Origin: an uncultured Clostridia bacterium
GTDB lineage: Bacteria; Bacillota; Clostridia; UBA1381
DNA length: 64,000 nucleotides
Reading direction: 5' to 3'
Assembly: GCA_947591315.1 (NCBI GenBank)
Contig: CANQDD010000002.1
Location: forward strand, 1-64,000
A model generated the notes under the pieces. It was not told where the DNA came from. It did no database searches and saw only the letters and a program-made list of their open reading frames with translations. Below are positions 5,027-55,266 of this stretch, piece after piece. The first letter of the stretch is position 1. Each line of letters starts with the position of its first letter. A program made the position numbers and the translations under genes.

Positions 5027-6673
5027 ATGAAAGCTATATCAAAATACATCAATACCGCGATGGGGCGCGAAAGCGCGGACTTAATATTAAAGGGCGGAAA
5101 CGTCGTTGACGTGTTCACGGGCACGGTCAAAAAGGCGGACGTTCTCATAAAAGACGGCGCTATATGCGGCGTGGGCAGCTACAGCGGCGAAAACGAGGTT
5201 GACGTTAGCGGAAAGTACGTCATGCCGTCGTTCGTTGACGCGCATGTACACATAGAATCGTCCATGGTCACGCCCGCGGAGTACGCGGCGGCTGTCGTTC
5301 CGCACGGTGTTACAACCGTTATAGCCGATCCGCACGAGATTACAAACGTGTGCGGCACCGACGGCACGGATTATATGCTCGCCGCGTCGGAGGGTATCGC
5401 ACTCGACGTTAAGCTTATGCTGCCGTCATGCGTTCCGGCTGCTCCGTTTGAACACGCTGGCGCTGTGCTGACCGCCGAGGAAACAAACAAAATAAAGGAC
5501 AAGTTCTTCGGCATAGGCGAAATGATGAACTACCCCGGCATACTCGCGGCTGACGGCGAGACGCTCGGCAAGCTGTGCCTTGACAAAATCGACGGTCACG
5601 CGCCGCTTGTCACGGGGCGCGAGCTTGACGCGTACGCCTCTGCCGGAATCAAAACCGACCACGAGTGCAGCCGCACCGATGAAATGCTCGAAAAAATAAG
5701 CAAGGGTATGTATGTGCTTTTGAGAGAAGGCACGCTGTCGCGCGACGTCGCGCGGCTCGCGGACGGCATAAACGGCTACACGCTGCGCCGCTGCGCGTTC
5801 TGCACCGACGACCGTTTTGTCGGCGATATTCTGCGCTCGGGCAGTATCGACAACTGTATAAGAACGGCGCAGTCATGCGGCGTAAACGATATCGACGCGA
5901 TTATTATGGCGAGCCTTAACGCGTGCGAGATGTACGGGCTCAAAAACCGCGGCGCGGTCGCGCCGTCATACGCGGCGGACATAGTAGTCGCGGACGATTT
6001 AAAGCTCACGAACATTCTCATGGTTTACAAGGACGGCGTGCTCGCCGCGAAGGACGGCAAGGCGCTGTTTGAGGTCACAAACACCGACGCGTCAAAGGTC
6101 ACAGACACGGTTCACCTTCCCGAAATAACGCCTGAATTTTTCGCGGACGAGATGAAGGATGAGTTTTACGCGATAGAGCTTGTGCCGCACGCGATCGTGA
6201 CGAAAAAGGTCACGGCGCGCAGGGGCGATAAGCTAAGCAAGGTGTGCGTCATAGAGCGGCACCACAACCTCGGCACGAAGGGAATCGGGTACGTCACGAA
6301 TTACGGCATTACGGGCGGCGCGGTCGCCTGCTCGATAGGTCACGACAGCCACAACGTAATCGTCATAGGCGACAGCGACGCGGATATGGCTCTCGCCGTG
6401 AACACGCTCGGCAAAAGCGGCGGTATCGCCGTGTGCGGCGGCGGTAAAGTTACGGCGTATCTGGAGCTTGAAATAGCCGGACTTATGACGCAGAAAAGCG
6501 CGTCCGAAACGGCAAAAATTCACGACGAGCTTATAAAAGCCGCGCGCTCTCTGGGCGTTACCGAGGACGTCGACCCACTGCTCGCGCTCGCGTTTCTGCC
6601 GCTGCCGGTCATACCCGAAATACGCGTAACCGACGGCGGACTGTTTGATGTTACGGAGTTTAAATTTATATAA
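5027..6673 (+). CDS. ade: Adenine deaminase
   Basis: The 548-residue amidohydrolase converts adenine to hypoxanthine and ammonia for purine salvage. Family motifs are visible: the metal-binding VDAHVHIESSM near residue 70, PHEITNVCG, LPSCVPA, and the C-terminal adenine-deaminase-specific domain beginning around residue 390 with GHDSHNVIVIGDSD. Length and start match Bacillus Ade. It has its own promoter, and a hairpin lies between it and the convergent adhE. Confidence 0.96.
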   Translation: MKAISKYINTAMGRESADLILKGGNVVDVFTGTVKKADVLIKDGAICGVGSYSGENEVDVSGKYVMPSFVDAHVHIESSMVTPAEYAAAVVPHGVTTVIADPHEITNVCGTDGTDYMLAASEGIALDVKLMLPSCVPAAPFEHAGAVLTAEETNKIKDKFFGIGEMMNYPGILAADGETLGKLCLDKIDGHAPLVTGRELDAYASAGIKTDHECSRTDEMLEKISKGMYVLLREGTLSRDVARLADGINGYTLRRCAFCTDDRFVGDILRSGSIDNCIRTAQSCGVNDIDAIIMASLNACEMYGLKNRGAVAPSYAADIVVADDLKLTNILMVYKDGVLAAKDGKALFEVTNTDASKVTDTVHLPEITPEFFADEMKDEFYAIELVPHAIVTKKVTARRGDKLSKVCVIERHHNLGTKGIGYVTNYGITGGAVACSIGHDSHNVIVIGDSDADMALAVNTLGKSGGIAVCGGGKVTAYLELEIAGLMTQKSASETAKIHDELIKAARSLGVTEDVDPLLALAFLPLPVIPEIRVTDGGLFDVTEFKFI

Positions 6674-6686
6674 GAACATACAAAAC

Positions 6687-6728
6687 GGGGACACTAAAAG
6701 TTTAGTGTCCCCACGTTTTAGTGTCCCC
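6687..6728. terminator. Hairpin between convergent ade and adhE, built from the GGGGACACTAAA repeat
   Basis: GGGGACACTAAA (6687-6698) and its exact complement (6701-6712) are separated by two bases, giving a 12-bp stem. A further complementary copy stands at 6717-6728. The symmetric hairpin between two convergent genes is likely a two-way transcription end. The third copy contains the adhE stop codon. The same 12-mer recurs inside hypE and hypD. Confidence 0.75.
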
Positions 6729-9297
6729 GATAAGCGTTCATCATGATTTCCTCTATCTCGCTAACGAGCGGCAGACGCGGATTCGCCGTAGTGCACTGAT
6801 CCTCAAACGCCTTGTCAGCCAGTTCGCCGAGCTTTTCGGTGTACGTTTTTTCATCTATTCCGCACTCCGCGAACGAGAGCGGCTCGTCCACTTCTTTCAT
6901 TAAATTTATAACCGCGTTTACAAGGCTCTCCACTCCCTCCTCCGCCGTTGACGCGGGGAGGTTCAGAGCCGCCGCGATTTCGGCGTACTTTTTATCGGCT
7001 TTGAAGCGGTCGTACTTCGGGAACGACACGAGCTTTGACGGTGCTGACGCGTTGTAGCGTATGACGTGCGGCAAAAGCACCGCGTTCGCTCTGCCGTGGG
7101 GTATGTGGTACTCGCCGCCTATTTTGTGCGCGATCGAGTGGTTAAGTCCCAGAAAAGCGTTCGTGAACGCCATACCCGCTATACAGCCGGCGTTGTGCAT
7201 TTTCTCGCGCGCTTCCTCGTCCGACGCGCCGTTTCTGTACGCGCGCGGCAGATATTCAAACACAAGCTGCACCGCCTTTATCGCAAGCCCGTCCGTGTAG
7301 TCGGACGCCATGACTGACACGTAAGCCTCTATCGCGTGCGTGAGAACATCAAGTCCTGTGTCGGCGGTCGCTGCTTTCGGGAGCGACATCACAAACTGCG
7401 GATCTATTATCGCCACATCTGGCGTAAGCTCGTAGTCAGCGAGCGGGTATTTCATGTTGTTCTTTTTGTCGGATATTACGGCGAAGCTCGTTACCTCCGA
7501 ACCCGTGCCGGAAGTCGTCGGTATCGCGACGAGCCGCGTCCTGCCCATTTTCGGGAACTTGAACGCGCGCTTCCTGATGTCGAGGAAACGCAGTCTTAGC
7601 GCGTTAAAGTCAACGTCGGGGTGCTCGTAAAACAGCCACATACCCTTTGCCGCGTCCATCGCGCTGCCGCCGCCGAGCGCGATTATAACGTCGGGCTTAA
7701 AATCGTTCATCATCTCAGCGCCGGCGCGCACCGTCTCTATTGACGGGTCGGGTTCGACCTCGGAAAAAATCTCGGAGTGAACGTATTTCTCGCGCTTGCG
7801 CAGATAGTACAGAACCTTGTCCACATAGCCGAGCTTTACCATTCCGGGATCGGTTACGATGAACGCGCGGCTTATATCCGGCATTTTTTCAAGGTACTGT
7901 ATGGAGTTGCGCTCGAAATATATTCTGTCGGGAATTTTGAACCACTGCATATTTACTCTCCTTCGCGCCACTCTTTTCCTGTTTATGAGGTTCATCGTTG
8001 TGATGTTGCCGCTAACGCTGTTGCCGCCGTAGCTGCCGCAGCCTAAAGTGAGCGACGGCATATTCGTGTTGTAAATGTCGCCTATCGCGCCGTGCGACGA
8101 CGGCGAGTTTACTATAATGCGGCTCGCTTTCAGAACGTCCGAAAATTTCCTTATAACTTCCCCGTCGCGCGCATGGATAACCGCGCTGTGTCCCATGCCG
8201 TGGAACATGACCATTTCCTCCGCGCGTTTTATTCCCTCGTCGGTGGAATTTACGATAAGGTACGCGAGTACGGGGCTTAGCTTTTCGCGCGAAAGCGGAT
8301 ACTCCTCACCCACGCCGTCAACCCTTGCGATAAGGATTTTCGTATTTTTTGGAGCGTTTATGCCCGCGTTTTCGGCGATAAAGTCCGCGCTTTTGCCGAC
8401 TATATCAGGGTTTACAGAGCCTTTTTCACTGTTTATGCAGTAGTCCGACAGCCGCTTTATCTCGTCGTCACGCGCGAAATAGCAGCCGTATTTTTCCATA
8501 AGATGCTCGAATTCCTCGTGTATCTCATTATCGACTATCGCCGCCTGCTCCGACGCGCAGATCATGCCGTTGTCGAACGTCTTTGAAAGAATAAGGTCAT
8601 TTACCGCCTGCTCCAAATCGGCGCTCTTGTGAATGTAGCACGGCACGTTGCCGGGCCCCACGCCGAGCGCCGGCTTACCCGTTGAGTACGCGGCTCTTAC
8701 CATGCCGCTGCCGCCCGTGGCAAGCACCGTCGCGACGCCGGGGTGGTTCATAAGCGCGGTCGTGGCTTCAACTGACGGGTGCTCTATCCACTGTATGCAG
8801 TTTTCGGGCGCGCCCGCCTTTACGGCAGCGTCACGCACTATTTCAGCCGCCTTTGCGGAGCATTTCTGCGCCGCGGGGTGGAAGCCGAAAATTATAGGGT
8901 TGCGCGCCTTTATGCACGTTATCGCCTTAAACAGCGTCGTCGAGGTCGGGTTCGTTACGGGCGTAACGCCGCATATAACGCCGACCGGCTCGGCTATAAC
9001 CTCGTAGTCCTCCAAATCGCTCCGCTCTATAACGCCGACGGTTTTCTCGTTTTTTATCGAGTGGTACACGTACTCGGTCGCGAACATATTTTTCGTGATT
9101 TTGTCCTCGTACACTCCCCTGCCCGTTTCCTCGACCGCCATTTTCGCAAGCTCCATGTGCTTGTCGAGACCGGCGAGCGTCATTGCCTTCACGATTTTGT
9201 CAACCTCGTCCTGCGTGAGGCTCATAAATTTGTCGAGCGCCTTCTGCGCCTCTTTAACGTATCCGTCTATCATTCCGTCTATGTTTATATCTGCCAT
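6718..9297 (-). CDS. adhE: Bifunctional acetaldehyde-CoA / alcohol dehydrogenase AdhE
   Basis: The 859-residue protein reduces acetyl-CoA to acetaldehyde and then ethanol, re-oxidising two NADH, as a main fermentation route. The N-terminal half is a CoA-acylating aldehyde dehydrogenase with catalytic Cys in FDNGMICASEQ. The C-terminal half, from about residue 450, is an iron-dependent alcohol dehydrogenase with GGGSAMDAAKGMW and the iron ligands in DTGLDVLTHAIEAYVS and NHSIAHKIGG. The start follows GAAGGAGAG. The last three codons (Arg-Gly-His-stop) are read from a copy of the GGGGACACTAAA repeat. Confidence 0.98.
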   Translation of the reverse strand: MADINIDGMIDGYVKEAQKALDKFMSLTQDEVDKIVKAMTLAGLDKHMELAKMAVEETGRGVYEDKITKNMFATEYVYHSIKNEKTVGVIERSDLEDYEVIAEPVGVICGVTPVTNPTSTTLFKAITCIKARNPIIFGFHPAAQKCSAKAAEIVRDAAVKAGAPENCIQWIEHPSVEATTALMNHPGVATVLATGGSGMVRAAYSTGKPALGVGPGNVPCYIHKSADLEQAVNDLILSKTFDNGMICASEQAAIVDNEIHEEFEHLMEKYGCYFARDDEIKRLSDYCINSEKGSVNPDIVGKSADFIAENAGINAPKNTKILIARVDGVGEEYPLSREKLSPVLAYLIVNSTDEGIKRAEEMVMFHGMGHSAVIHARDGEVIRKFSDVLKASRIIVNSPSSHGAIGDIYNTNMPSLTLGCGSYGGNSVSGNITTMNLINRKRVARRRVNMQWFKIPDRIYFERNSIQYLEKMPDISRAFIVTDPGMVKLGYVDKVLYYLRKREKYVHSEIFSEVEPDPSIETVRAGAEMMNDFKPDVIIALGGGSAMDAAKGMWLFYEHPDVDFNALRLRFLDIRKRAFKFPKMGRTRLVAIPTTSGTGSEVTSFAVISDKKNNMKYPLADYELTPDVAIIDPQFVMSLPKAATADTGLDVLTHAIEAYVSVMASDYTDGLAIKAVQLVFEYLPRAYRNGASDEEAREKMHNAGCIAGMAFTNAFLGLNHSIAHKIGGEYHIPHGRANAVLLPHVIRYNASAPSKLVSFPKYDRFKADKKYAEIAAALNLPASTAEEGVESLVNAVINLMKEVDEPLSFAECGIDEKTYTEKLGELADKAFEDQCTTANPRLPLVSEIEEIMMNAYRGH

Positions 9298-53222: not shown

Positions 53223-54203
53223 TCAGCATATTCTCGGCAAACCCTCGCCGTAAAGCTCCGTCACCCTGCGTCTGCCGCCGAGCGGCGTTATAAGCGTCAC
53301 GTCGCCGCCCTTTACGGCGCGTCCGACTATCGCTGCGTTCTCACCGTAACGGCTTTTTCGTATAACTTCGAGCGCCTTTTGCGCGTCGCTTTCCGCCACG
53401 ACTGCAAGCAGTTTACCCTCGTTGCCCATGTGCATGACGTTAAGTCCGAGTATTTTGCAAAAGCCCCTGACCTCCGGCGTTATCGGGATTTTATCCTCGT
53501 CTATTTCAAAGCCGCAGTCCGCGTTTTTCGCAAACTCGCAAAGCACCGTGCCGAGACCGCCGCGAGTTATATCGCGCATGGCGTGAATATGAACACCCTC
53601 GCTCATCATATTTTGTACCATCTCGCAAAGCGGCGCGCAATCGCTTTTTATGTTGTTTTCTATATTCATTCGCCCGCTTAAAATCGCCGCGTGGTGGTCG
53701 CCGAGCGTGCCGGACACTATCAGCGCGTCACCCTCGCGGCAGTTCGCGCTTTTTATGTCCACTCCGTCCTTTACAAAGCCGACGCCGGTCGTATTTATAT
53801 ACACGCCTCCGCTGCCCTCGATAACTTTAGTGTCCCCCGCGATTACCGTCACGCCGGCTTCCTTTGCCGTTTTCGCGAGCGACTGAGCGATAAACTTTAG
53901 TGTCCCCGTATCCGCGCCCTCCTCGATTATATAGGCGGTCGTGATGTACTTCGGCACAGCGCCGCGCATGAGCAGGTCGTTCACCGTGCCGCACACCGCG
54001 AGCCTTCCGATGTCGCCGCCCTTGAACGTGAGCGGCGTTACTACAAAGTTGTCGGTCGTGACGGCAATTTTAGTGTCCCCGTCCACGACCGCGCTGTCCT
54101 CCATCATGTCAAGCACGGGATTGGAGCTTGACGCCCTGAAAATCTCGTCTATAAGCTGCGAGGTCGAGCGACCCCCGCTGCCGTGAGCCATTGTAATTTT
54201 CAT
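53223..54203 (-). CDS. hypE: Hydrogenase maturation protein HypE
   Basis: A 326-residue ATP-dependent dehydratase that turns the C-terminal thiocarbamate into thiocyanate, the source of the cyanide ligands. It starts MKITMAHGSGGRSTSQLI and ends in the required ...PRIC, with Cys as the last residue. Three copies of GGGGACACTAAA lie inside it; two are read as Gly-Asp-Thr-Lys (one being the family's natural IAGDTKV) and one in another frame as Gly-Thr-Leu-Lys. It lies 7 bases after hypD, and its stop overlaps a possible start of the next gene. Confidence 0.96.
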   Translation of the reverse strand: MKITMAHGSGGRSTSQLIDEIFRASSSNPVLDMMEDSAVVDGDTKIAVTTDNFVVTPLTFKGGDIGRLAVCGTVNDLLMRGAVPKYITTAYIIEEGADTGTLKFIAQSLAKTAKEAGVTVIAGDTKVIEGSGGVYINTTGVGFVKDGVDIKSANCREGDALIVSGTLGDHHAAILSGRMNIENNIKSDCAPLCEMVQNMMSEGVHIHAMRDITRGGLGTVLCEFAKNADCGFEIDEDKIPITPEVRGFCKILGLNVMHMGNEGKLLAVVAESDAQKALEVIRKSRYGENAAIVGRAVKGGDVTLITPLGGRRRVTELYGEGLPRIC

Positions 54204-54825
54204 ATTTACCTCACCTGTTATTCGTGTAATAGTGGAAGCACGCGCCCTCCATTGACACCATGCACGCGCCCTGCGGCGTGTCGGGCGTGCAGACCGTGCC
54301 GAAAAGCGGACAATCGTGCGGCGGTTTCCTGCCCGATATTACGTCGCCGCACGCGCACGCGCCGTTGTACATTTTATCTTCGCACAATTCCGCGCTGCCC
54401 GCGTCAAACCGCGCGTACTCCTTTTTGAGTACAAGCCCCGAATTTTTTATAACGCCCATGCCGCGCCACGCAGCGTTGCACGGCTCAAAATATTTGCTTA
54501 CCTTTTCCTGCGCCTCGGTGTTGCCGTCATACGTAACGACCGACGGGTACATATTCAGCGCTTTGCCGCCCTTTAATTTCGTGAGCGCGTATATCGCAGC
54601 CAACAGTTCCGCGCCGCCGAACCCCGCCGTCACGAACGGAAGGTTAAGCTCCTTCGCCATATCCTCAAACAGCCTGTGACCTGTTATAACGCTCACATGT
54701 CCGGGCGCGAGGAAACCGGTAATTTTAGTGTCCCCGCTTGCGACCGCGCGTATCGCCTGCGGCATTGTTTTGAGCGCGGTCAGAAGCTTTACATTTTTAG
54801 TGTCCCCGTTTATTTTAGTGTCCCC
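53826..54825 (-). repeat. Six in-gene copies of the 12-mer GGGGACACTAAA in hypE and hypD
   Basis: Exact copies lie at 53826-53837, 53896-53907 and 54069-54080 (hypE), and at 54724-54735, 54796-54807 and 54814-54825 (hypD). The last two are six bases apart. All are on the coding strand. The same word forms the 6687-6728 hairpin. They are read in two frames here and in a third at the end of adhE. Confidence 0.9.
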
Positions 54826-55266
54826 ATTGAGCAAACGCTCTACGATCAGCGCGTACACCGGCGTTGTCGTTTCAAAGCCGACCGCCGCGAAAACGAATTG
54901 TCTGTCGGGATTTTCGCGCGCCATGTCGAGTATTTCAAACGGTGAGTACACCATTTTCACGCTTCCGCCCTCCGCAGCCGCGTCACGCAGCGACTTTTCC
55001 GAGCCCTTGACACGCATCATGTCGCCGAACGTCACGACCGTCGTGTTCGGCGTAAGCGCAAGCTCTACGAGGCGGTCGATGTACGACGCGACCGTTACGC
55101 ACACGGGGCAGCCGGGCCCCGATATGAGCTTTATTTTCGGCGACAGCATAGCCGGTATGCCGTTTTCGGAGATCGACGCGGTATGCGTGCCGCAGACCTC
55201 CATGATAACCTTTTCCTCGCCGTTGTAATTTTTGAGGTACTCCTTAATTTCGTTTAAGTCAGGCAT
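54211..55266 (-). CDS. hypD: Hydrogenase maturation protein HypD
   Basis: A 351-residue iron-sulfur scaffold that with HypC builds the Fe(CN)2CO unit. Family motifs are CGTHT near residue 25, GPGCPVC near 51, GFETTTP, GFLAPGHVS, and the C-terminal cluster Cys set (NGACACGDV ... CPLFGTVCTPD ... GACMVS). A segment NGDTKINGDTKN near residues 150-161, encoded by two adjacent GGGGACACTAAA copies, looks like an insertion relative to the family. A third copy gives SGDTKITGFL. It overlaps hypC by 8 bases. Confidence 0.96.
   Translation of the reverse strand: MPDLNEIKEYLKNYNGEEKVIMEVCGTHTASISENGIPAMLSPKIKLISGPGCPVCVTVASYIDRLVELALTPNTTVVTFGDMMRVKGSEKSLRDAAAEGGSVKMVYSPFEILDMARENPDRQFVFAAVGFETTTPVYALIVERLLNGDTKINGDTKNVKLLTALKTMPQAIRAVASGDTKITGFLAPGHVSVITGHRLFEDMAKELNLPFVTAGFGGAELLAAIYALTKLKGGKALNMYPSVVTYDGNTEAQEKVSKYFEPCNAAWRGMGVIKNSGLVLKKEYARFDAGSAELCEDKMYNGACACGDVISGRKPPHDCPLFGTVCTPDTPQGACMVSMEGACFHYYTNNR

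Follow-up and report, generated by a model that had tools for sequence, protein, structure and literature searches.

The 12-nt word GGGGACACTAAA forms a real, conserved family of sites that is confined to one bacterial family. We regard the word as a candidate binding site for a TIRYT/RAYT-lineage protein that would be catalytically dead and domesticated by the host, an identification that the sequence comparisons described below make probable, if well short of certain. A first-pass annotation of the window, by which we mean the whole 64-kb stretch analyzed here (contig CANQDD010000002.1 of assembly GCA_947591315.1, positions 1 to 64,000, forward strand), had reported nine exact copies, six in hypE and hypD and three at 6687-6728, and we recovered all nine at these places. 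Its estimate that less than one copy would be expected by chance in 64 kb was also borne out, with dinucleotide shuffles yielding a mean of 0.01 copies. There were no one-mismatch copies of GGGGACACTAAA within the window, and we found no literature on this 12-mer.

Extent and placement of the repeat

In the genome to which the window belongs (G000; 2.34 Mb in 42 contigs, 85% complete), we counted 143 exact copies (86 + 57), and 0 copies of the reversed word used as a control, which places the genome-wide frequency above expectation; nor are all of the copies in hypE and hypD present in distant HypD/HypE proteins. The copies form 44 clusters (gaps of at most 2 kb), and 7 of the 143 are solitary, as compared with the 78% that random placement would give. 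In the 300 kb around all copies, the one common variant was AGGGACACTAAA (n = 21), all other one-base variants pooled amounting to 14. About 64 of the 143 copies are coding. An apparent regular spacing of copies along contigs was a by-eye impression only and was dropped.

All 16 genomes of the genus carry the word, at 8 to 151 copies per genome, and counts reach 45 in some of the family's other genera, as compared with at most 1 per genome in the rest of the order and at most 2 in the genomes sampled from the class outside the family. The relatives that carry names comprise uncultured Clostridia, isolates called Lapin, whose rabbit origin is taken from that name, and one from goat gut. A phage origin was considered and set aside, no inverted or tandem pair of the word having been found in IMG/VR.

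The three copies at 6687-6728 form an array with an RNA fold of -23.1 kcal/mol (z -5.0). An adenine deaminase-like gene spans 5027-6673; 3' of its stop codon and in its sense orientation lies the copy at 6687..6698 (+), the left arm of a hairpin whose other arm, across a 2-base loop, is the copy at 6701..6712 (-), itself 3' of the stop codon of adhE and sense to adhE. The remaining copy (6717..6728, -) supplies the end of adhE (6718..9297, -), where it is read as Arg-Gly-His-stop, as had been annotated; from our reading of the protein, we take adhE to encode a bifunctional aldehyde/alcohol dehydrogenase. Several genes in the genome, adhE included, terminate in the same GGA CAC TAA, and the intergenic copies likewise form arrays 3' of stop codons; where two arrays meet, they do so head-to-head across a loop of 2 bases (spacing 14, with 14 such inverted pairs). 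Some copies lie directly 5' of an ATG; copies at start codons, like those just 3' of stops, have the sense orientation. The T-runs that follow the hairpins are short and mixed, so a terminator function of the head-to-head pairs is plausible at most. Flank preferences (C/T at -1, A/G at +12 and T/C at +13) were identical in coding and other copies, which suggests that one recognizer would serve both.

We also observed that two loci of this genome (L107:1660-1700 on contig C6, and L124 near 3037 on contig C1) have in common a hairpin, AATAGGGCA..TGCCCTATT, whose loop contains the motif. One of the two follows a small phage-like membrane-anchored ORF, and the hairpin is possibly a prophage terminator that took up the word.

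Origin and conservation of the copies inside genes

Of the copies in clear ORFs, 60 have the sense orientation, 38 of them read as GDTK and 22 as GTL[KN], and 4 are antisense, with four further sense copies in one small ORF; the third forward frame of the word contains a stop. For comparison, four-mismatch sites in the same genes gave a sense-to-antisense ratio of 668:241 and, in the same two sense frames, a ratio of 350:204. Judging by the latter ratio, the choice of frame reflects how many near-matches were available. The surplus of sense copies is larger than that supply would give (binomial p 8e-5, a value that is only rough because the copies are clustered).

The six copies in hypE (53223..54203, -) and hypD (54211..55266, -), three in each gene and all sense, are read as GDTK five times and as GTLK once, in line with the first-pass annotation. 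This had also proposed that one of them coincides with the natural GDTKV of HypE and could be the seed from which the others spread. The coincidence was upheld: the copy at 53826..53837 (-) lies on GDTKV residues that distant HypE proteins share in other codons (e.g., GGT GAC ACA AAG) and that are recoded here to the exact word, and it is exact in all six genus members having hypE, with other codons in most outgroups. Spread by insertion from this seed, however, did not hold up, as alignment with relatives showed that all of the hypE/hypD copies but one replace residues without change in length. These in-place replacements comprise, in HypE, a GTLK copy at 53896..53907 (-; EEGADTDDLE in outgroups and ADAELLT in genus member G004) and a GDTK copy at 54069..54080 (-; GFKT, GSGR, and GSSK in outgroups) and, in HypD, GDTK copies at 54724..54735 (-), where one relative has GGGGACAGTAAA, and at 54796..54807 (-; NKIK and EDIK in outgroups). 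Overall, the residues NKIK/EDIK, DNDK, GFKT/GSSK, and ELLT/DDLE of relatives are overwritten gap-free by GDTK or GTLK. The one inserted copy (54814-54825, -) is contained in an 18-bp in-frame insertion in HypD (54808..54825, -) that is present in three species and absent from three others of the genus, and whose edges are ambiguous by a few bases. GGG was indeed uncommon as a Gly codon (93 of 1517, counted over the genes of the window that encode 200 aa or more).

We saw the same in-place pattern in sense copies of the genes for U32 peptidase, HydF, and TrpF, and in antisense copies in those for TrpC and TrpA, read there as FSVP or LVSP; the MutL copies sit in a fast-evolving linker with length changes nearby. 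Most copies arose by overwriting near-matches, without insertion, and a GGA CAC TAA stop is among the readings produced in this way. Once in place, they are held at the nucleotide level: in a sample of eight genes from five close species, third-base differences at unchanged residues amounted to 8 of 963 in motif codons (0.8%), as compared with 730 of 3292 in neighboring codons (22%) and 4512 of 23529 elsewhere, a comparison that carries some ascertainment bias in that sites were included if exact in at least one species. Throughout the genus, the antisense copies in trpA and trpC persist even where identity falls to 73-75%.

The cobalamin operon is a favored target in two genera (L104, L116, L118, L119, and L120, in G000, G003, G033, G018, and G014), and some copies there, such as that at CbiF residue 67, occupy an identical position in both. 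In the second genus, the cobyric acid synthase gene holds a sense and an antisense copy 67 bases apart, both kept in G033 (L118) and G018 (L119). We considered a single regulon and rejected it, since the B12, trp, hyp, HydF, MutL, U32, and sugar-acid genes form no one regulon.

A divergent RAYT/TIRYT relative and its promoter

By reading a gene whose start codon follows directly after a motif copy, we found a candidate partner protein of 172 aa, encoded by a single-copy gene outside the window (G000:C26:12788-13303). The first-pass annotation had called for a search for a transposase or RAYT gene; a divergent RAYT-type relative is thus present, but it lacks both the HUH motif and the catalytic tyrosine. 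A Pfam search returned no Y1_Tnp (PF01797) protein in this genome, the 172-aa protein having diverged too far for the profile; on its own, it scores below the Pfam cut-off. Its core is homologous to RAYT/TIRYT proteins (hhalign 99.9% over 118 columns; in the comparison set, NF047646 was matched by 4 of 4 members and PF01797 by 3 of 4), and PDB profile searches gave no meaningful match.

Each of the 16 genomes of the genus has a short homolog (149-197 aa; a fragment in one case), as do genera g4, g6, g10, g11, and g15, and longer homologs are found in most other genera of the family. In the short form, the HUH motif has been lost, with EIR-type residues in the genus and HVH retained only in G029, as has the catalytic tyrosine (Y---NP); the long form mostly has [RK][VI]H in place of HUH and F in place of the tyrosine. 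As judged from the alignment, the short form is also devoid of the C-terminal HTH-like domain and ends in a Lys-rich tail plus PSWLL. The C-terminal WLL tail is common to both forms. In L182-L211, the C-termini read [LM]PSWLL or LSVWLL after a Lys/Pro/Glu-rich linker, which intact TIRYTs do not have, and this conserved peptide may serve to dock another protein.

Without HUH and tyrosine, the protein should be unable to move DNA. Its gene is under purifying selection (dN/dS of 0-0.14 between close species) and, in most genomes looked at, lies between what are presumably P-type-ATPase-like (divergent) and polysaccharide-deacetylase-like genes, names that come from our reading of the proteins. 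The low dN/dS and the conserved synteny point to a stable host gene rather than a moving element. Intact-looking relatives in G002, G043, and G056 retain NH[IV]H and YIHQNP, are flanked by GGGGACG-type inverted repeats, and form one clade with G021 (support 100/98). The word is absent near the Y1 genes of relatives, except for L103, where it lies near the edge of the locus. In many relatives, IS200-like Y1 genes of about 150-175 aa were also seen at contig ends (G002:C23, G022:C90, G013:C31, and G003:C1), a placement that resembles that of multi-copy insertion sequences, with the motif not nearby.

The protein is linked to the word through its own promoter. Throughout the genus, TTTTAGTGTCCC[CT] lies upstream of the partner gene, directly before an extended -10 box and antisense to the gene, where it would overlap the -35 region (overlap counted by hand). 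There is no motif within 150 bp downstream, so that the gene is not flanked on both sides by GGGGWSAS inverted repeats. Several other genera have TTTTTGTGTCCC or TTTTATGTCCCT at the same place, and many of the genomes with these promoter spellings are enriched in RGGGACAYAAAA (41 against 2 of a control word in G024, and 24 against 2 in G028). The spelling of the word differs between protein clades; in g4, the promoter carries CACAAAA, whereas CACTAAA is the most frequent spelling in the genome. Across the family, 28 genomes have both protein and word, 5 the protein only, 4 neither, and none the word only (Fisher p 0.002; counted by hand, with enrichment judged against a control word). The five protein-only genomes are enriched in neither spelling, and two of the four having neither are only 73-74% complete. 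Shared ancestry inflates this co-occurrence, and the promoter site and varying spelling therefore weigh more.

Comparison with known systems, mechanism, and alternatives

The system is of the RAYT/TIRYT-repeat kind, its sites most likely being those of a domesticated, dead TIRYT. Published TIRYTs (TnpA_REP subclass 2.1) have terminal inverted repeats that share GGGGWSAS, and all had HUH and tyrosine (PMC3733652, PMC6006769). The repeat studied here begins with GGGGACAC, compatible with GGGGWSAS, and the system resembles theirs in the homologous Y1 core, in having one copy of the gene with a repeat 5' of it, and in the related repeats elsewhere in the genome. It differs in the loss of HUH, catalytic tyrosine, and (in the short form) HTH, in the missing downstream repeat, and in its 12-bp sites, which replace near-matches inside genes and whose synonymous positions are conserved; it does not qualify as a working transposase system, given its HUH, tyrosine, and flanking inverted repeats, all of which fall short. 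REP/REPIN-RAYT systems likewise combine a transposase relative that is domesticated and inherited vertically with a dispersed repeat that has arrays, head-to-head pairs, and a preference for 3' gene ends, but their unit is a largely extragenic GTAG-type palindrome or hairpin of 20 nt or more, whereas we find single 12-mers, about half of them in genes, and a partner that appears inactive. Rickettsia palindromic elements and intragenic REPs are also read in frame in many genes, but as longer palindromic insertions rather than 12-bp sites that are mostly replacements.

In the mechanism that we propose, the partner protein, which keeps the Y1-domain core and the conserved PSWLL tail after losing HUH, tyrosine, and HTH, would bind the word. 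By covering the -35 region of its own promoter it would repress itself. Other sites would be kept because binding there matters, most likely through an effect on transcription within genes and at their ends. A protein that once bound single-stranded DNA and now reads the non-template strand, where exposed, or the mRNA would account for the sense excess; conservation of the antisense copies in trpA and trpC speaks for DNA as the target, and the non-template strand or mRNA may also matter. Although the protein looks dead, the repeats are strictly maintained, and if binding holds, transposition cannot explain their retention and a host function must. More tentatively, as a possibility that we take seriously without expecting it, a catalysis-free transposase relative may act as a sequence-specific host factor whose 12-bp sites, placed in the coding sequences, stop codons, and ends of dozens of genes, are kept long and change spelling with the protein, making up a gene-body-reading network that originated from a mobile element.

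The main rival is a DNA-uptake-like drive, in which the competence machinery would prefer DNA with the 12-mer, and near-matches would be converted and then kept by biased uptake and recombination. DUS/USS are short exact words with genus-dependent spellings, and their near-match origin, strict conservation, occurrence in both orientations and in permissive places, terminator-like head-to-head pairs, and in-gene orientation bias are all matched here (PMC2397512, PMC2346458). As with DUS, the copies are more conserved than their surroundings, by the synonymous comparison above, and almost every genome of the family has ComEC. Relatives that lack the word have ComEC to the same extent, however, and where a DUS would number hundreds to thousands across the core genome, the copies here are few, in tight clusters and tied to a transposase relative, whose promoter site and co-varying spellings uptake would leave unexplained. 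We consider this reading unlikely. Quite unlikely, in our estimate, is a messenger-level signal, with an RNA-binding protein (possibly the partner itself) or a small RNA reading GGGGACACUAAA in transcripts; the predominance of sense copies in clear genes, set beside the near-match ratio, and the sense orientation just after stop codons and at start codons speak for it. A pure mRNA reading is weakened by the conservation of the antisense trpA/trpC copies across the genus, and the promoter copy is antisense and upstream of the -10 box.

We give little credence to a still-active RAYT/TIRYT that mobilizes the repeats as miniature mobile elements. The lineage of the protein, its GGGGWSAS-like word, the 18-bp insertion in HypD, and the active-looking TIRYTs of some relatives would be in keeping with it, but an active RAYT elsewhere would insert where these copies replace, this genome has no PF01797 protein, the intact TIRYTs carry a different repeat, and copies beside the Y1 genes of relatives are limited to L103. 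The in-place copies and lost catalytic residues argue against mobilization by a RAYT. Chance or an assembly artifact has next to no probability, as the shuffle and reversed-word controls were near 0 and the same sites recur, conserved across species, in independent rabbit- and goat-gut assemblies.

The host role of domesticated RAYT-type proteins is an open question (PMC6006769, PMC8049555). If recognition by the dead TIRYT relative is true, a nucleotide signal would constrain the protein sequence of HypD/E, TrpA/C/F, HydF, and the cobalamin pathway. The bacterial family offers a natural series, from apparently intact TIRYT through the long tailed form with damaged HUH to the short non-catalytic form, with related spellings. 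The intact-looking TIRYTs at L212 (G002:C18), L213 (G043:C30), and L088 (G056:C124), with their inverted GGGGACGGTTCT or GGGGACGTGCCTG repeats, would be useful active comparison enzymes.
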